This document shows, piece after piece, positions 13,755-31,610 of a DNA stretch of 39,212 nucleotides; within the stretch, counting starts at the first letter, position 1, and each line of letters opens with the position of its first letter. Origin of the DNA: Deltaproteobacteria bacterium. Lineage in GTDB: Bacteria > Desulfobacterota > Binatia > Binatales > Binataceae. The notes under the pieces were generated by a model. It was not told where the DNA came from, ran no database searches, and worked only from the letters and a program-made list of their open reading frames with translations. The stretch is taken from contig PLDK01000005.1 of the NCBI GenBank assembly GCA_003135135.1, forward strand, positions 30,870-70,081. The letters run 5' to 3'. The translations under genes were made by a program, and so were the position numbers.

Positions 13755-13874
13755 CTACTTTTTTTGTTCCATCGGAACACCGCAGCACTTGAGTTGTCCG
13801 GAGCCGCCCTTGGTGACGATAACCTGGGATTTGCAATTGCCGCAGATGTAAACTTTGCCGAGCTGATTTGCCAT
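13755..13874 (-). CDS. Desulforedoxin-like 39-aa iron miniprotein (copy 1)
   Basis: The minus strand encodes 39 residues beginning MANQLGKVYICGNCKSQVIV and ending LKCCGVPMEQKK. Cysteines 11, 14, 30 and 31 have the same spacing as in Desulfovibrio gigas desulforedoxin (CxxC, 15 residues, CC), which binds one iron per chain and dimerises; the same module forms the N-terminus of desulfoferrodoxin. AGGA lies about 9 bases before the ATG. No larger superoxide-reductase domain follows, so this is a free-standing module. A second copy lies at 18679-18822 with the same MANxLGKxYxCxxC start. Electron-carrier function is inferred from the fold; zinc binding is possible. Confidence 0.8.
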   Translation of the reverse strand: MANQLGKVYICGNCKSQVIVTKGGSGQLKCCGVPMEQKK

Positions 13875-13928
13875 TCGTGGATCCTGATCCTTTTGGACGA
13901 TTTTGTCTTAAAACTTTGCGCCGAACAT

Positions 13929-14714
13929 TCACGCGCCCCTGAACAGCGGTCTGCGCTTCTCGAGAAAGGCGCGCACGCCTTCGGCGCGGTCGGCAGTCGT
14001 TTGTAGCAGGGCGTATAGATCCTCCTCAAGCCTTATGCCCTGCTCCAATGTCATGTCGTAACCCTTGAGCACGGCGTCCTTGACCAGCCGCGCGGCCAGC
14101 GGAGCGCGGCTCAGGATCGCCCCGGCGACGCGGCCGCTTAATGCAGCGAGCTCGATCCGGCTGTCGGCGAGATAAGCGATAAGGCCGGTGCGCATCGCCT
14201 CGTCGGCTCCCAGAGCCATCCCAGTGAGCATCAGGCGCAGAGCGACGCCGGCGCCGACGAGCCGCGGGAGTCGCTGGGTCGCGCCGAAGTGGGGCATCGC
14301 GCCGCGTTTCATCTGCGTGATCGCGAATCGAGCCGACGAAATGGCGACCCGAATGTCGGCGGCCATCGCAAGTTCCAATCCTTCATCGAATGCGTCGCCG
14401 TTGATGATCGCCACGGTGGGCTTGGAGAGCACGGCGAGCGATTCGACCAGGCGCGGATCTACGCCGTCGTCGAAACCGGTGCAGAACATGGAGCCGGCGC
14501 CGGTGATCGCGAGCACGCGGGCGTCGTCGTCGTCCTCGACGTGCTCGATCAGCTCGAGCATCCGCACCGCCATCGCGGGCGTGAGCCGGGCGCCCGGACC
14601 GGCGTAGCGAAGCGTCGCGCTGACGCATCCGCTGGCGAAGGCAACGTCGATCGCGCCGGCGCCACGGCGGGGCGCGGCGCGGGTTCGGGATTTTTTGGCG
14701 GGGCGCGGCGTCAG
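13929..14714 (-). CDS. Enoyl-CoA hydratase/isomerase family protein, probable CTG start
   Basis: The crotonase-fold protein shows VLAITGAGSMFCTGFD, the oxyanion-hole region INGDAFDEGLELAMAADIRVA, and the C-terminal RAEGVRAFLEKRRPLFRG typical of the family. The usual second catalytic Glu is not clearly placed, so isomerase or another crotonase chemistry is possible. The frame has no ATG, GTG or TTG near the expected start. CTG at 14714-14712 is in frame, forms a CTGA overlap with the ligase stop and has GGGAGA 5 bases upstream. That gives 261 residues beginning (M)TPRPAKKSRTRAAPRRG, a basic non-conserved leader. Starts inside the ligase gene cannot be excluded. It is part of the acyl-CoA operon. 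Confidence 0.8.
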   Translation of the reverse strand: MTPRPAKKSRTRAAPRRGAGAIDVAFASGCVSATLRYAGPGARLTPAMAVRMLELIEHVEDDDDARVLAITGAGSMFCTGFDDGVDPRLVESLAVLSKPTVAIINGDAFDEGLELAMAADIRVAISSARFAITQMKRGAMPHFGATQRLPRLVGAGVALRLMLTGMALGADEAMRTGLIAYLADSRIELAALSGRVAGAILSRAPLAARLVKDAVLKGYDMTLEQGIRLEEDLYALLQTTADRAEGVRAFLEKRRPLFRGA

Positions 14715-16258
14715 ACGTCTCCCGCGGGCGCGCGCAGGTCTTTGCGCAGGATTTTGCCGAGCGGATTTTTGGGCATCGTGTCGATGAACTCGATGCGCTC
14801 GGGACGCTTGAAGCTGGCCAGGCGTGAGCGGCAGAACTCGGCGAGCTCCTGCTCGGTCGCGGTCTTTCCCTTGCGCACGACGACGAAGGCTTTGACGGTC
14901 TGCCCCCACTCGACGGAGGGCACGCCGATAACGGCGCATTCATCGACGGCCGGATGGCTCATGAGGACGGTTTCGATTTCCGCGGGAGCAATATTTTCGC
15001 CGCCGCGGATGATCATGTCGTCCTTGCGGCCGGCGAAGAAGACGTAGCCGCCGCTGTCGAGCCATCCGAGATCGCCCGTGGCGCGCCATCCGTCGAGCAG
15101 TCGCGCGTTGTCGTCGCGGCCAGCGTAACCCTTCATGATTCGCGGGGTGCGGATAATTATTTCGCCGACCTGGCCGGCGGGGAGCAAGTTGCCGTCCTCG
15201 TCGCGGACGTGAATCTCGACATCGGGGAGCGGCAAGCCCACCGAATTGAGGCGTTTGAGTTTCAGCTCGATCTGCTCGGGCGTGCCCTCGAGTCTATGAT
15301 CGTCGGGGCCGAGCACGGTCAGCGATGAAGTCGTTTCAGTTTGTCCGTACGCGTTCACGAAGCCGACTCGTTTGGGGAAGACTTCAATCGCGCGGCGAAT
15401 CACCTGCACCGGCATCGCCGCGCCGCCGTAGGCGAGGTTGGTCAGGCTGGAGAGATCGGAGTTCGCAAATGAGGGCTCGTCGAGGATCTGCTTCATCATC
15501 GTGGGCACGACGAAGGCATGCGTGACGCGCTCGCGCTGGACGAGATCGAGCCACGTGCGGGCGTCGAATTGCGGCATCACGATCAGCTTGCGGCCGGTCC
15601 AGATGTTGGTCATGTACGAGGTGGTTCCGGCGATGTGATAAAAGGGCACGCACACCAGCGAGGCGCCGCGATCGGTGCCGTCGGCCATCTCGACGTTGGC
15701 GGTCACGTAGGCGGTGAAATCGCGAAAGCGCAACTGCACACCCTTGGGCAGCGAGGTGGTGCCGCTGGTGTACATCAGGATCGAAATATCCTCGTCTTCG
15801 ACTTCAGCTTCGGATTCATCGGGGTCAGCCTTGGCGATCAGATCGGCGAGCCGCGGCAATCCGCGGGCAGCGTCGCCGATCGCGACAATCGTGTTCGCGC
15901 TGAGCCGGGACTGAATCTTGTTTACCAGTTCGAGGTAGCGATCGCCGACGAGCAGCGCCTTCGTCTGTGCGGTGTTGATCATGTATTCGAGCTCGGCATC
16001 CTTGGCGCGATAGTTGAGCGGCAGGAATACAAGCCCGGCCTTGGCGGCAGCGTAGTAGCATTCGATGTAGAGATCGGAGTTGGTGTCGAGCAGGGCAACG
16101 ACGTCGCCATGCGCCAAACCGAATTGTTTGAAGACCGCGCACAGGCGCGCGACCTGGTCGTTCAGATCCGCGTAGGTAAGGCGTCGCGAGCCGAAGACCA
16201 GGATTTCCTGGTCGGGCACGATCGACGATGGGATCGTGACGAAGTTAACCGTGTTCAC
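14711..16258 (-). CDS. AMP-forming acyl-CoA synthetase (ligase)
   Basis: The 515-residue adenylate-forming enzyme activates a carboxylic acid to its CoA thioester. Motifs in order: P-loop YTSGTTSLPKGV near 166-177, YGQTETTS near 300, GDLGWLD near 398, the hinge RKDDMIIRGGENIAPAEIE near 409-427, and the catalytic Lys of PLGKILRKDLR near 500. Chain specificity cannot be read off; the sequence is of the fatty/aryl acyl ligase type. It lies 30 bases after the upstream hydratase gene (ends 16289) and overlaps the next by 4 bases. Upstream hydratase, ligase and downstream hydratase form an acid-degradation unit. Confidence 0.93.
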   Translation of the reverse strand: MNTVNFVTIPSSIVPDQEILVFGSRRLTYADLNDQVARLCAVFKQFGLAHGDVVALLDTNSDLYIECYYAAAKAGLVFLPLNYRAKDAELEYMINTAQTKALLVGDRYLELVNKIQSRLSANTIVAIGDAARGLPRLADLIAKADPDESEAEVEDEDISILMYTSGTTSLPKGVQLRFRDFTAYVTANVEMADGTDRGASLVCVPFYHIAGTTSYMTNIWTGRKLIVMPQFDARTWLDLVQRERVTHAFVVPTMMKQILDEPSFANSDLSSLTNLAYGGAAMPVQVIRRAIEVFPKRVGFVNAYGQTETTSSLTVLGPDDHRLEGTPEQIELKLKRLNSVGLPLPDVEIHVRDEDGNLLPAGQVGEIIIRTPRIMKGYAGRDDNARLLDGWRATGDLGWLDSGGYVFFAGRKDDMIIRGGENIAPAEIETVLMSHPAVDECAVIGVPSVEWGQTVKAFVVVRKGKTATEQELAEFCRSRLASFKRPERIEFIDTMPKNPLGKILRKDLRAPAGDV

Positions 16259-16288
16259 AGCGCGCGATTCCTCCAGGGCATATGCAAA

Positions 16289-17065
16289 TCAAATATCGGC
16301 ATTTTTTCCGCCGCGGATTGGCGCGGGGCTGCGTTCGATTTCGATCAGCGCGAGCCGCTCCCATAGCCGGCGTTCGAGTTCGAGTCCCTGTCGAAGCGGC
16401 AAATCGAGGCCTCCCCAGACCGCCAGCTTTAATATCGCGGACCGCTCGCGGGCGACGCGTCCAAAGGCGCGGGCGATCGTGAGCGCGCGGCGATCCAAAT
16501 CCGCCAAGGGAACTACTTCGGCGACCAAACCTACAAGTAACGCGTTTTGGGCGTCAATCCAACGGCCAGTGAGGCAAAGGTCAAGCGCGCGGCCCAGGCC
16601 GATCCGGCGCGCGGCGGTTTGGGTGCCCGCGACCCCGGGAATCATGCCGGCGCCAGTCTCGGGCAGGCAAAGGCTGGTGTCATCGGCGGCGATGGCGAGG
16701 TCGCACAGCAGCGCCATCTCGAGTCCGCCACCGACCGTGTAGCCGTGGATCGCCGCGATCGTCGGGACAGGCAGCGCGCGGAGCATCCCCCACACGTCGC
16801 GGCGAAAGCGGGCCCATCGTGCGACGATCGGTGAGGGCGCCATCCCGAACTCGGCAAGATCGCCACCGGTCGAGAAGGCCTGACCGGCGCCCCGCAAGAC
16901 CATCGCGCGAACCTCGCGATCGTCGTGGATGGCGGTGAGGACCTGAAACAGATCGTCGCGCATCGCCATGTTGTAAGCGTTGAATTGATCGGGACGATTG
17001 AGCGTGACCCACGCGACGGGCCCGCGCTTGCTGTAGAGAACCGCACTCGAGCCGCTCGATGACAT
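16289..17065 (-). CDS. Enoyl-CoA hydratase/isomerase
   Basis: The 258-residue crotonase-family enzyme starts MSSSGSSAVLYSKRGPVAWVTLNRP. It shows GAGQAFSTGGDLAEFG, the oxyanion loop YTVGGGLEMALLCDLAIA and LPETGAGMIPGVAGTQTAARRIG, with Glu in a catalytic position. It likely hydrates a 2-enoyl-CoA or shifts its double bond. I chose the ATG at 17065 because it overlaps the amidohydrolase stop in a TGATG junction; the frame is open much further upstream, but that part is out-of-frame amidohydrolase sequence. Operon membership with the ligase is well supported by spacing. Confidence 0.92.
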   Translation of the reverse strand: MSSSGSSAVLYSKRGPVAWVTLNRPDQFNAYNMAMRDDLFQVLTAIHDDREVRAMVLRGAGQAFSTGGDLAEFGMAPSPIVARWARFRRDVWGMLRALPVPTIAAIHGYTVGGGLEMALLCDLAIAADDTSLCLPETGAGMIPGVAGTQTAARRIGLGRALDLCLTGRWIDAQNALLVGLVAEVVPLADLDRRALTIARAFGRVARERSAILKLAVWGGLDLPLRQGLELERRLWERLALIEIERSPAPIRGGKNADI

Positions 17066-18636
17066 CAGCCGGAACGCAGGTCGGCGCTGTCGCTGCTGGC
17101 GATGGCGGGACGGCCGCGCTCGTAAACCACGCGGCCGCCGACGATTGTTATATCGACGGCGAGGTTCATCAGATCGGCGGGCTTGAGCGAGAACGGGTCG
17201 TGCGGCAACACGATGAGATCGGCCAGACGGCCGGGCTCGATGGCGCCGGCCTCGAGCCGGGCCAGGCGCGCAGCGTCGATCGTGAAAAGCGCGAAGGCCT
17301 CGTGGACGGGGAGCGCTTCGGCGGGTGCGAGCTCGACGCCGTCGATGGTGGTGCGGGAAACCGCGGCCGCAATCGCGGCGAGCGGCTTGGCGGGTGTGAC
17401 CGGGGCGTCGGTGGCGCCGACCAGATGAACACCAGCGGCCTTGAGACTTCGCGCGCGGTAGAGATGCGCGATGAGGCCGGGCTCCGCGGCGTACTTGGGA
17501 CCGCGGAAGTGGATGAAGCCGGGGTTGGTGACGACCCACACGCCGAGCGCCATGAGCCGGTCTATGTAGTTGGGCGTAATCAGCCCGCCGTGTTCGATGC
17601 GAAACCGCGGGATATCGCGCTCGCCGGGGAAACCGGCCTTGGCGGCTTCGATCGCGGCGACCGCCTCTTCCAATTCTTCGATTTCGGTCACATGAAAGGC
17701 GCAATCGAGTCCCCGGCCGAGCGCATCGAGCACCGGGCGTGCGAGCCCGGCACGGTCGTACTGATAGCCGGGCATGAACTTGACGCCGGACAACCCGATT
17801 CCAGCGGCGCGGGCAAGTTGTTTGCATCGATCGACGGCGTCGAGATGCTGCGCGCCGATCATCACGCTGACGCGTTGGCATATCGCGCCCGAACTCGCCA
17901 GCTTGGCGAACAGTTCGACTTCGACGGGGCCGTTGCGCGTGGTTGCGTCGGTGAATGTGGTCACTCCCGCGGCGGCCAGTTCGCGGCTCATGATGCGCGC
18001 GCGTGATTCCGATTCCGCGGCGGTCACGAGCGGGAGATGATCAGACAGCCACGTTTCCATCCCGACTACGAGGCCGGTGAGCTTGCCGGCGGCGTCGCGA
18101 ATCAGGTTGGCGCCCGGCGGCGGTGTGAAGCCGAGAGCTTCGAGGCCGAGCAACGCGATGGCGCGCGAGTTGAGCCAGGTCGCGTGCAACGTCTGATGGC
18201 GCAAGCGCAACGGATTTTTGGGCAGCGACTGATCGAGCTCGGCGCGCGTGGGTCCGCGCTTTTCGAGCATCAGCGCTTCGTCGCATCCGAACGCGCGCAG
18301 CCAGTTGCCGGGCGGAGTCTTGCCGGCGGCAAGCCGCAGATCGCCCAGCAGATCGCCCACCGTGCGGCATCGCTGAACCGAGACTCCGGTGGCAGCGGCA
18401 GCAGCCTGCAGGAAATGGAGGTGCGAATCGATGAAGCCGGGAGCGACGGCGCGGCCCGCGAGCTTGATCAGATGAGTTCGCGGACCGACCAGCGGCTTCA
18501 GTTCCGCAAACGGACCGTGCGCGGTGATCACCCCGCCAGAGATGGCAACCGAGTCGATCCCGGGGTGGCCGAGGACCAGACCCTCGTGAAGAACCAAGTC
18601 GGCTTTCGCGGGCGCCACTAGCACTTTGGAACGCAT
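17065..18636 (-). CDS. YtcJ-type amidohydrolase (Amidohydro_3 family)
   Basis: The 523-residue protein is a metal-dependent hydrolase. The metal-binding HxH is His72 and His74 in APGFIDSHLHF. Other marks are NSRAIALLGLEALGF, GVTTFTDATTRN, VKFMPGYQYDR with a lysine in a likely metal-bridging position, FHVTEIEE, RFRIEHGGLI, VGATDAPVTPA and the ending LADLIVLPHDPFSL with GGRVVYERG. These belong to the YtcJ/N-substituted formamide deformylase-like group; the substrate could be an amide, carbamate or cyclic imide. It is the first large gene of the operon and is translationally coupled to a hydratase, so it may release the acid that the ligase activates. That order of steps is an inference. Confidence 0.85.
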   Translation of the reverse strand: MRSKVLVAPAKADLVLHEGLVLGHPGIDSVAISGGVITAHGPFAELKPLVGPRTHLIKLAGRAVAPGFIDSHLHFLQAAAAATGVSVQRCRTVGDLLGDLRLAAGKTPPGNWLRAFGCDEALMLEKRGPTRAELDQSLPKNPLRLRHQTLHATWLNSRAIALLGLEALGFTPPPGANLIRDAAGKLTGLVVGMETWLSDHLPLVTAAESESRARIMSRELAAAGVTTFTDATTRNGPVEVELFAKLASSGAICQRVSVMIGAQHLDAVDRCKQLARAAGIGLSGVKFMPGYQYDRAGLARPVLDALGRGLDCAFHVTEIEELEEAVAAIEAAKAGFPGERDIPRFRIEHGGLITPNYIDRLMALGVWVVTNPGFIHFRGPKYAAEPGLIAHLYRARSLKAAGVHLVGATDAPVTPAKPLAAIAAAVSRTTIDGVELAPAEALPVHEAFALFTIDAARLARLEAGAIEPGRLADLIVLPHDPFSLKPADLMNLAVDITIVGGRVVYERGRPAIASSDSADLRSG

Positions 18637-18678
18637 GCCTTCGCCGCCTGCGACCGAGCGCGGCGGCGTACGGACGTT

Positions 18679-18822
18679 CTAGTCGGAACTTGGAAGCGGC
18701 TTGGCTTCCTTGATCTTCATCTCGCCATCGCAACACTCGACGCCGCCGGCGCCAGCCTTGTTGCAGAGCACCTCGGTGCCGCACTTCTCACACACGTAAC
18801 GCTTTCCAAGCACGTTAGCCAT
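18679..18822 (-). CDS. Desulforedoxin-like 47-aa iron miniprotein (copy 2)
   Basis: The minus strand encodes 47 residues starting MANVLGKRYVCEKCGTEVLC, with VECCDGEMKIKE near the end. Cys11, Cys14, Cys30 and Cys31 occupy the same positions as in copy 1 and in desulforedoxin; Cys20 is extra. AAGGAG lies just before the ATG. It stands 42 bases before the amidohydrolase start and could be the first gene of the acyl-CoA operon. The C-terminal tail KEAKPLPSSD is not in copy 1. It is too short for most gene finders. Iron binding and dimer formation are family knowledge; partner and electron source are unknown. Confidence 0.82.
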   Translation of the reverse strand: MANVLGKRYVCEKCGTEVLCNKAGAGGVECCDGEMKIKEAKPLPSSD

Positions 18823-18890: not shown

Positions 18891-19898
18891 TCAACTCTGC
18901 GCGAACGGCAAATCAGCCACGATCGCGGCGCCGTCCCCGCCAATCTTCAACTCAACCCCAGGCGTCCATGCGCTGCGGTGCAAAATCGCAAGCCCGATCG
19001 CGCCAAATCGCGGCGAGCGCATCGCACTGGTCACACGGCCGACCTCGATCCCGGCCAGACTGACCATCGCGCCGACCGGCGGCACATGCGCATTGCTGAA
19101 CTTAAGTCCGAACATCCGTTTTTTCAAACCGCCGCGCGCGGTCGCCCGCTCGATAGTTTCCTGCCCAAGGTAGCATCCTTTGGAAAACGAGATTGCACGA
19201 TCGAGCCGCGCCTCGAGTGCGATCGTCTTGTCGGTGGTATCAACACCGATGAGTGCGATGCCGTTTTCGACGCGGATAGTTTCGAGCGGGCTCGAATCGA
19301 CGCGGCGCGAATGCGGCGCTTTCGCAAGCAGGTTGGCGATGGTCGAATCAATGGAATCGCGCGAAGCGATTACAGATACCGCGGGTCCGCCGTAACGAGG
19401 CAAGTTGCCGATCAGCGACTTGCCGGCTTCGACGAAACGCCACGGGGCAATCGACGCTGCCACTTCAGCAGAGCAGGCCGCGTCGAGAGCGGCAGGTCCC
19501 TCGACGTCGATCAGGGCAAGCTCGCTTGCGTCTTCGAATTCGACATCATCGGCCACCAGCAGGCGCTCAAGATGCGCCCGCGTGCGCGTCCACGCATCGG
19601 AGTCGATATCCAGCATCAGCGCGTCGCCGGTCACCCATATGAACGCATCGGCGATCACGTGTGCGTGCTCGGTCAGAAACAGCGCGGGCAGGATGGAACC
19701 AGGGCGGGCGCCCTTTACGTCGGCGGTGCACATCCCGTGGAAGAACGAGGCGCGATCGTCGCCGACTACGCGCACGACGATTCGGCCGTCGAGGACATGC
19801 ACGCCCGCCGCATTTACGACCGCATCGTAAGCCGAGTCGAAGGCCGCATCGGCGGTTGCGGGCGCGCCGGTACGATCAGATGTTTCGAGATGTGCCAC
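18891..19898 (-). CDS. ygfZ: Folate-binding YgfZ-like protein (GcvT fold)
   Basis: The 335-residue protein has a GcvT-like fold with the YgfZ signature KGCYLGQE at residues 240-247, preceded by ENGIALIGVDTTDKTIALEARLDRAISF and followed by ATARGGLKKRMFGL. YgfZ/IBA57 proteins bind folate and support iron-sulfur cluster proteins such as MiaB and radical SAM enzymes. The N-terminal DRASFFHGMCTADVKGARPGS is also typical. It stands upstream of the desulforedoxin-like gene on the same strand with a 68-base gap, so it may or may not share its transcript. Together with sufT it adds to the iron-sulfur theme of the window. Confidence 0.87.
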   Translation of the reverse strand: MAHLETSDRTGAPATADAAFDSAYDAVVNAAGVHVLDGRIVVRVVGDDRASFFHGMCTADVKGARPGSILPALFLTEHAHVIADAFIWVTGDALMLDIDSDAWTRTRAHLERLLVADDVEFEDASELALIDVEGPAALDAACSAEVAASIAPWRFVEAGKSLIGNLPRYGGPAVSVIASRDSIDSTIANLLAKAPHSRRVDSSPLETIRVENGIALIGVDTTDKTIALEARLDRAISFSKGCYLGQETIERATARGGLKKRMFGLKFSNAHVPPVGAMVSLAGIEVGRVTSAMRSPRFGAIGLAILHRSAWTPGVELKIGGDGAAIVADLPFAQS

Positions 19899-30344: not shown

Positions 30345-31610
30345 CTACTGCGTTATAGCAGCTCCCGTCACGCCGCTGCGACTCAGAATGTGGCGGGCGC
30401 CCGCGAGGCTCAGGACATCGTTGGTGCCGTCCTCAATCAACGAGGCGCGTGCGTCGCGGAAGATTTTTTCGATTCCGTACTCCTTGCTGAGGCCATTGCC
30501 GCCGAATACCTGGAGTGCGTCGCTCGCGACCTCGAACGATGTCTGTGTGCAGAACGTCTTGGCCGCGATCGCGTGCTCCAGCGACGGAGTGGTCGAGGTT
30601 TGGTTGTAGATCATCACGGCCCGTGACAGCGCCCGGCATACCTCAACCTTGGTGAACATCTCGAACAGATGCTTCTGGACGAGTTGATGCTCGCAGATCG
30701 GCCTCCCTCCCTGGACGCGCTGCCTGGAGTAGTCGAGCGCTTCCTCGTAAGCGGCGCGTGCGACGCCGGTGAACGCAGCCGCCATCGCAGAGTTGGCAAA
30801 GGTGAGAGTCCGTTCGACTTCGAGCTCGTAGCCCTCGCTCTTGGTCAGCATCCATTTGCGCGGAATCCTTACATTGTCGAAATAAATTTCACCCTGATTG
30901 AGCGCACGTTGGCCGAGCTTGTTGAGCGGCTTGCCCTTTGTCACGCCCGGCAGGTTGAGCGGGACGAAAGCGATTCCGCCGCCAGCCATGCCGGCCTTGG
31001 GCTCGGTCGTCAGATAGAGCGCCGCGTGGGTTGCGATCGTCCCGTTCGAGACCCACGCCGCCTTCTGCCCGTTGATCACGTATGAGTCGCCATCGGCGCG
31101 CGCGACGACCTGGCCGGTCACGCGGGGATTGTGGAACTCGGGCGTCCCCGGCACCAGTTCATCGGAGCCGTGCTGAGGCTCAGTGATCGCCCAGCATCCG
31201 ATGAGACTGCCGTCGCGATCGGCGATATAGGGCTTAACGAACTTTTCGAAAAGTTCTGGATTGCCGCTCGCGGCGGCGGCAGAAAACGGGAAACCCGTGG
31301 CCAGAAGGCTTATCGCCAGATCACCCGCGCCCCAGGCCAGCTCCTCGATCAGCACATGCATTCCGAGCCCACGCAGTCCCATCCCGCCCAGTTCCGTGGG
31401 AAGGCCGGCGACGTGGTATCCCAACTGGTATGCCTGTTTGAAAACGCTTCTTAGCGGCGAATCGAGCGCGATCACGTCGCGCGGATCGGTCATCCGGTCA
31501 AGCGCCGCCGCAGCCGGGCGAAGCACCTCCTTGGCGAAGCGATGAACACTCTCCTTGATGGGCACGAGGTCTTTAGGGAATTCGACGTTTAGCTCGCGGT
31601 AGATATCCAT
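30345..31610 (-). CDS. Acyl-CoA dehydrogenase
   Basis: The 421-residue flavoprotein oxidises an acyl-CoA to the 2-enoyl-CoA. Marks: GYHVAGLPTELGGMG near 70-84, WAITEPQHGSD, the FAD/substrate strand KAAWVSNGTIATHAALY, the Q-rich helix EHQLVQKHLFEM, DALQVFGGNGLSKEYGIEKIFRDAR and LIEDGTNDV, where the Glu is in the catalytic-base position of many family members. GAGGAGCAAGG precedes the ATG. It is co-oriented with the thiolase and probably works in the same beta-oxidation-like route. A possible TetR-type operator lies 65-78 bases upstream of the start. Confidence 0.93.
   Translation of the reverse strand: MDIYRELNVEFPKDLVPIKESVHRFAKEVLRPAAAALDRMTDPRDVIALDSPLRSVFKQAYQLGYHVAGLPTELGGMGLRGLGMHVLIEELAWGAGDLAISLLATGFPFSAAAASGNPELFEKFVKPYIADRDGSLIGCWAITEPQHGSDELVPGTPEFHNPRVTGQVVARADGDSYVINGQKAAWVSNGTIATHAALYLTTEPKAGMAGGGIAFVPLNLPGVTKGKPLNKLGQRALNQGEIYFDNVRIPRKWMLTKSEGYELEVERTLTFANSAMAAAFTGVARAAYEEALDYSRQRVQGGRPICEHQLVQKHLFEMFTKVEVCRALSRAVMIYNQTSTTPSLEHAIAAKTFCTQTSFEVASDALQVFGGNGLSKEYGIEKIFRDARASLIEDGTNDVLSLAGARHILSRSGVTGAAITQ

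Follow-up and report, generated by a model that had tools for sequence, protein, structure and literature searches.

Why should two very small genes coding for desulforedoxin-like proteins be placed at the two ends of a gene set for acyl-coenzyme A (acyl-CoA) metabolism? We address this question here for a stretch of 39,212 nucleotides, called the window throughout, which corresponds to positions 30870–70081 of its contig (PLDK01000005.1) in a 3.73 Mb, 51-contig genome of the Ca. Binatia (Binataceae); named relatives of this genome are Ca. Binatus soli and further Ca. Binataceae/Binatia metagenome-assembled genomes (MAGs). In a preliminary description of the window, two open reading frames of 39 and 47 codons had been reported to flank four genes on one strand, and both were located as described, on the minus strand at positions 13755–13874 (MINI1) and 18679–18822 (MINI2). 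The four flanked genes likewise proved to be those named there, namely an amidohydrolase (AMH, Amidohydro_3 match), a crotonase (ECHa, ECH_1 match), a ligase (LIG, AMP-binding match) and a second crotonase (ECHb, ECH_1 match). As described below, the small proteins are conserved and occur together with one type of acyl-CoA ligase. On balance we favour, though with no great confidence, the idea that MINI1 pairs with MINI2 in a heterodimeric accessory subunit, an activator or stabiliser, of one acyl-CoA ligase subfamily; the physical binding, the heterodimer and the effect on ligase activity are what we infer from these data.

The two small proteins and their conservation in Binatia

MINI1 (39 amino acids) and MINI2 (47 amino acids, with the C-terminal tail KEAKPLPSSD) both contain the motif C-x2-C-x15-CC, which bears out the desulforedoxin-like spacing, with the cysteine pair 16 residues on, noted in the preliminary description. 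By sequence, both can be placed in the desulforedoxin-like superfamily: MINI1 matches PF06397 (Desulfoferrod_N) with 28.6 bits, above the cut-off of 23, and MINI2 matches it below this cut-off with 14.4 bits, while the NCBIfam model TIGR00319 gives MINI1 a score of 23.7, below its cut-off of 36.05. The best solved relative of both profiles is desulforedoxin 1cfw (E 7e-6 for MINI1 and 0.01 for MINI2), and the two small proteins are homologous to each other with a profile probability of 99.1 %. The possibility that they are chance reading frames is ruled out by their presence in relatives and by codon changes that are mainly synonymous; codons with synonymous-only changes outnumber those with replacements in 10 of 10 comparisons with the window for MINI2 and in 7 of 10 for MINI1.

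The four-cysteine (Cys4) site is kept in 17 of the 18 MINI2 rows of alignment A1 and in all 19 MINI1 rows of alignment A2. In alignment A3, which was gathered by similarity, the GKRY segment and the final L-P-x-S-D are invariant (18/18 rows), and the C-termini in the A1 and A3 rows read LPSSD or LPASD. Among 78 distinct MINI2-type sequences, tallied with a pattern that demanded GK[RK]Y and an (S/A)SD end and left the cysteines free, the Cys4 site is present in 58 and missing from 20; the site is thus retained in the window copies themselves and not across all MINI2-type homologues. Relaxing the pattern at the C-terminus revealed no other end among the collected sequences, the MINI2 of locus L183, which ends in KPSSD, standing outside this tally. 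In alignments A5 and A6 the rows were chosen by a cysteine-demanding pattern, and the invariant cysteines in them are therefore no evidence.

MINI2, as a single or a fused protein, was found in 32 of 38 genomes (the source genome and 37 relatives), which agrees with the expectation that the small frames would be conserved in relatives. Of 59 named loci, 41 contain the whole block MINI2-(AMH)-ECHa-LIG-ECHb-MINI1, which spans 3.3–5.6 kb in 40 of them and 7.6 kb in one, so that the earlier view of one operon-like block that includes both small genes also holds. The remaining 18 loci have no visible MINI1 and most of them reach a contig or locus edge first; at least three are incomplete without such an edge effect, namely L100 and L103 (both split) and L136 (MINI2 without the rest). 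The block recurs in four other Binatia families and in the family genomes viewed, one of which (G010, which contains L103) has it split in two. Outside the family, identities by tblastn are 70–81 % for MINI2, 48–62 % for LIG, 38–47 % for ECHb, 34–38 % for AMH and 31–41 % for the YgfZ/GcvT-like protein encoded upstream. Because the small proteins are better conserved than the surrounding enzymes, this suggests that they carry a conserved binding surface.

Some copies stand apart from this arrangement. Decayed additional MINI2 copies with similar sequence after each are seen in two genomes belonging to the genus, at L089:2000-2300 (contig C9 of G000) and L091:7450-7700 (contig C10 of G006), and look like a repeated element or pseudogene with a broken MINI2. 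A second, solitary MINI1 is present at L075:7557-7673 (G021), with the other operon genes unmatched within 14 kb. Two records titled as Klebsiella pneumoniae MAGs (L107 and L133) contain a Binatia-type block and are probably mislabelled bins; the ligase of L107 clusters with those of Binatia in the tree described below.

Co-occurrence with one type of acyl-CoA ligase

LIG (positions 14711–16258, minus strand) is a class I adenylate-forming acyl-CoA ligase with an AMP-binding domain (279 bits) and a C-terminal domain. Among the 38 genomes, LIG is present at an identity of at least 56 % in 30, and all 30 have a small protein; six genomes have neither. In the last two, MINI2 lies at a contig end (G011, 53 % complete) or a fused form lies beside a ligase of 42 % identity (G029). 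Among 297 genomes of the phylum, LIG was found at 48 % identity or more in 16 (next best 41 %) and a small protein, defined by an A1 match of at least 45 bits (next best genome 40), in 15 of these 16. Only 2 of the 281 genomes without LIG have a small protein, and in these the contig is cut at the expected ligase start (G142) or a diverged ligase is present at the contig end (G251). Fisher tests that ignore kinship, with cuts chosen after the lists had been viewed, gave values of 3e-22 (phylum sample) and 1e-5 (relatives). As a control, ten loci with ordinary free-standing desulforedoxins (L186–L195) were inspected, and the operon proteins were unmatched in the 6–17 kb available at E values up to 1e-10; L196 was excluded from this set, the match there lying inside a 180-amino-acid frame.

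The same association is seen on plasmids, from which our evidence for Actinomycetota and sphingomonads is drawn. Two ligase queries retrieved the identical 18 of 72,556 plasmid records (E up to 1e-90), and a search with the small proteins retrieved 17 records, all of them among these 18 and no other. For the eighteenth, from Rhodococcus YL-1, a small protein was predicted beforehand from the presence of the ligase and then found as a 97-amino-acid 'hypothetical protein' beside it, a divergent form with a single cysteine, which brings the count to 18 of 18 ligase plasmids. The ligase gene is the immediate neighbour of the small gene in 17 of the 19 plasmid loci reached via the small protein and, with YL-1, in 18 of 20 loci on 18 records; two locus pairs (DK17/DK180 and 7B/X5) have identical small proteins, and plasmid NZ_CP130956.1 contains one further such place outside the viewed loci. 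In the two exceptions, L206 and L209, a ligase of the right type is found about 15 and 28 kb off on the same plasmids; in L206 only an unrelated AMP-binding gene is nearby (3 kb off), and in L209 there is none near.

The ligases of this set also group together. The A10 lysine is present in 57 of 57 aligned sequences, including that of G182 (see below). LIG itself matches the NCBIfam model NF004837 marginally above its cut-off and has fatty-acyl/feruloyl-CoA synthetases as its nearest solved structures. In a tree of 74 rows, the ligases linked to Cys-type and to fused-type small proteins, together with that of G182, are on one side of a branch with support of 100/95; in a reduced tree of 49 rows, for which seven very divergent ligases were dropped and the Binatia rows thinned, the support is 100/99. 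Paralogues of the source genome of the size of non-ribosomal peptide synthetases (NRPS) were left out. Ligases without a small protein but with comparable raw identity (38–41 %) fall on the other side. Fifteen positions are diagnostic, with at least 90 % fixation in each of the two mini-linked groups against less than 35 % in the comparison ligases, and a one-residue insertion at P295 is one of them; Y184, R223, W236, N302, S311 and D413 are among the positions fixed in 43/43 and 14/14 sequences. These residues are candidates for an interface with the small proteins.

Fused homologues and the possible role of the small proteins

In other classes of the phylum (G084, G118, G213, G220, G242 and G287) the gene order is ECHb-ECHa-LIG-MINI1-MINI2, with the two small genes in tandem beside the ligase; in G170 and G142 clusters of this tandem type are interrupted by contig ends. 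A fused protein of about 100 amino acids that contains both halves is found in the Binatia genomes G029, G251, G031 and G034 and on plasmids of Mycobacterium, Rhodococcus, Streptomyces, Sphingomonas and Sphingobium. Its C-half matches MINI2 with 99.4 % and its N-half MINI1 with 94.8 % profile probability, and the order of the halves is that of the tandem genes. No family name for the fused protein was obtained from Pfam (two proteins searched), NCBIfam (three proteins) or solved structures (profile). The full Cys4 site is absent from every half of the 20 fused proteins counted, and the C-halves contain between zero and two cysteines.

The genomes G031 (100 % complete) and G034 (98 %) have kept YgfZ-AMH-ECHa-LIG-ECHb, but the small genes are gone from that place and no PF06397 match at E values up to 0.001 is found in either genome. 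Each has a single fused small protein on another contig, whose N-half is free of cysteine and whose C-half has one or two; the ligase has thus been retained, whereas a form lacking the site has taken the place of the Cys4 pair. This favours a structural or regulatory role and argues against an electron-transfer function. In two further loci, L086 (G029) and L185 (G251), the fused gene is followed directly by a diverged ligase gene, with a crotonase gene near and, in G251, luciferase-like and PhyH genes as well. This setting resembles the actinobacterial plasmid clusters, and horizontal transfer is a possible explanation.

Desulforedoxin is a homodimer. According to the model we favour, MINI1 and MINI2 would be two diverged desulforedoxin halves which pair as a heterodimer and dock on LIG, thereby conferring activity or stability on it. 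Contacts with the ligase would be made through the GKRY segment and the Ser-Asp tail at the C-terminus, and the metal of the Cys4 site (Zn or Fe) would chiefly stabilise the fold, so that the fused version would manage without a full site.

Several observations weigh against this interpretation. Approximately unbiased (AU) tests did not reject a placement of the fused-type ligases elsewhere (p 0.178 and 0.111), and because neither alternative is rejected, a single origin of the mini-linked ligases is favoured but not proven. The comparison ligases used for the diagnostic residues are few (n=11). Two or three cysteines are present in 14 of the 20 fused N-halves (one in four, none in two), and the fused proteins may therefore contain a disulfide, or a metal site that is smaller or shared. 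The fused genes of G031 and G034 are away from the ligase, their neighbours being a FecCD-type transporter and a sulfotransferase gene. In G182 the ligase operon is present and its ligase falls within the mini-linked clade, yet no small protein was found; this genome is the sole true exception in the phylum sample. Lastly, the Fisher values are overstated, since the plasmid records and MAGs are related, and co-occurrence could also arise from a shared pathway without contact.

A rival idea, in which the small proteins belong to one of the crotonases or to the whole pathway and merely travel with the operon, is unlikely in our view, although the Cys-type clusters hold both crotonases about as constantly as the ligase. 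The plasmid loci separate the two: as seen above, the ligase is next to nearly every fused gene there, whereas the kind of crotonase and its distance differ from locus to locus, a crotonase gene being listed as the immediate neighbour solely in L202 and L206. Likewise, a ligase is adjacent in 15 of 17 annotated plasmid loci and the next commonest neighbour, a CoA-transferase, in 7 of 17, in one case with an unlisted gene in between, counts which are affected by incomplete plasmid gene tables.

The preliminary description had proposed a redox or protective role. That the small proteins are FeCys4 electron carriers, or protectants against oxygen or superoxide, for an oxidative step of the pathway now seems improbable, and as their main function we reject it, since the ligase association survives in homologues without a complete Cys4 site. 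The proposal has points in its favour: the near-complete retention of Cys4 in alignments A1 and A2, the cysteines that remain in most fused N-halves, acyl-CoA dehydrogenases and ferredoxins near the fused genes on several plasmids, and, as the usual upstream neighbour in Binatia, a YgfZ-like gene whose NCBIfam model is named for 4Fe-4S cluster assembly/insertion. However, a Pfam search revealed no oxidoreductase in the core block (the four enzymes and the small proteins), the ordinary desulforedoxins of the phylum were away from these genes in 10 of 10 loci, and in G031 and G034 the ligase operon persists with only a Cys4-less fused protein elsewhere in the genome.

We attach very little weight to the idea that MINI2 is a carrier protein, with the adenylating ligase loading a pathway intermediate on its C-terminal Ser-Asp tail in the manner of LysW. 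LysW is an amino-group carrier of about 50 amino acids with a metal ribbon, which carries aminoadipate on the C-terminal Glu of its EDWGE tail. MINI2 is similar in that it is a small protein of metal-ribbon type, conserved to the exact C-terminus with an acidic last residue, and its genetic partner is an adenylating enzyme. However, the cysteine pattern differs, the tail in the window reads LPSSD rather than EDWGE, and the profile match to LysW is noise (E 0.74), so that no sequence relationship is shown. In addition, the neighbours are CoA-ester enzymes, for which ordinary loading onto CoA would be enough, and no ligase of this kind is known to us to act on the C-terminus of a protein. Just as little can be said for a desulforedoxin-fold substrate carrier, MINI2 or MINI1:MINI2, on which the ligase would load an acid or amine and the crotonases would act on the carrier-bound form, an arrangement that would survive loss of the metal site.

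Several other small proteins provide parallels for the proposed accessory subunit. With desulforedoxin and the N-terminal domain of desulfoferrodoxin (PF06397, TIGR00319), the small proteins share size, the C-x2-C-x15-CC spacing and the profile match, and among solved structures desulforedoxin and desulfoferrodoxin are their best relatives, but they differ in being two diverged copies, in the conserved MINI2 tail, in the ligase association and in having homologues without a complete Cys4. DUF35 proteins, which are OB-fold Zn-ribbon proteins, pair with thiolases. This is again a small protein of metal-ribbon type with a CoA-ester enzyme, and in catabolic clusters at several of the plasmid loci such a gene is annotated next to that of a thiolase, but the family and the enzyme are different, the proteins described here pairing with a ligase. 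A further parallel is that with MbtH-like proteins, which are small and coupled to adenylate-forming enzymes of the superfamily of LIG; such genetic coupling is found for the small proteins both in genomes and on plasmids. By this analogy, MINI1 and MINI2 would work like MbtH-like proteins on NRPS adenylation domains and yet be unrelated to them, being desulforedoxin-like and having as partner a CoA ligase that stands alone, not an NRPS module. Solved structures of adenylation domains with an MbtH-like protein are listed in a table of PMC11253843. Membership of the MbtH family itself was considered and rejected, there being no match to this family in Pfam for the window proteins (E up to 0.1) or for two fused proteins. 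No description of a desulforedoxin-like/CoA-ligase pair was found in the literature covered by our search, outside which lay most subscription journals and all bioRxiv preprints, and neither 'desulforedoxin' nor 'CoA ligase' was found by a term search in the main text of the Binatota paper PMC8262859.

The putative pathway and wider meaning

On the minus strand of the window the genes are in the transcription order YgfZ/GcvT-like gene, MINI2, AMH, ECHa, LIG, ECHb, MINI1, with intergenic gaps of about 68, 42, -4, 30, -4 and 54 bases, as in one operon, which is thus predicted. The YgfZ/GcvT-like gene (18891–19898, minus strand) matches TIGR03317 with 76 bits, exceeding the cut-off of 49; no match to it was found in the mini-ligase clusters of other classes. 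AMH (17065–18636, minus strand, 230 bits) is a YtcJ-like amidohydrolase whose gene overlaps that of ECHa by 4 bases. It is the most dispensable enzyme of the block, being absent from 4 of the 41 complete named blocks, and no match to it is found in L083 and L085. In the preliminary description, an amide or imide had been put forward as a possible substrate of the route. ECHa (16289–17068, minus strand, ECH_1 167 bits) is an enoyl-CoA hydratase with both catalytic Glu residues, which are present in 34 of 34 loci with a match. The second crotonase-fold protein, ECHb (13929–14714, minus strand, ECH_1 126 bits), has an uncertain start; the candidates are CTG 14714, which overlaps the LIG stop, and ATG 14939 or GTG 14909, both within the LIG gene. 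Of the 34 loci with a match, 32 have its first catalytic Glu and only 1 has a Glu at the second position, the window copy having Gln there.

As read from these assignments, the operon would activate a carboxylic acid to its CoA ester via LIG, with AMH, where present, acting upstream of the ligase and ECHa hydrating the resulting CoA ester; ECHb, diverged and with a single Glu, probably catalyses a different crotonase-type reaction. The plasmid clusters differ among themselves. In G287 (L179:10319-12926), two genes of the 2-hydroxyglutaryl-CoA dehydratase D-component family are directly upstream of the mini-ligase operon, and on its opposite side are two type III CoA-transferase genes and a nitronate-monooxygenase-type gene, neighbours which suggest a route via aryl- or hydroxyacyl-CoA. 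Among the clusters of the other classes, three have type III CoA-transferase or nitronate-monooxygenase-type genes nearby.

If the accessory-subunit model is true, acyl-CoA ligases, which are very common catabolic enzymes and usually presumed to be solitary, include a subfamily with a dedicated small partner, one that plasmid annotations from Mycobacterium, Rhodococcus, Streptomyces and sphingomonads list as a 'hypothetical protein'. Such a ligase expressed without its small partner may then appear inactive, and a metal fold of redox type would have been recast for protein interaction and would afterwards have lost its full metal site.

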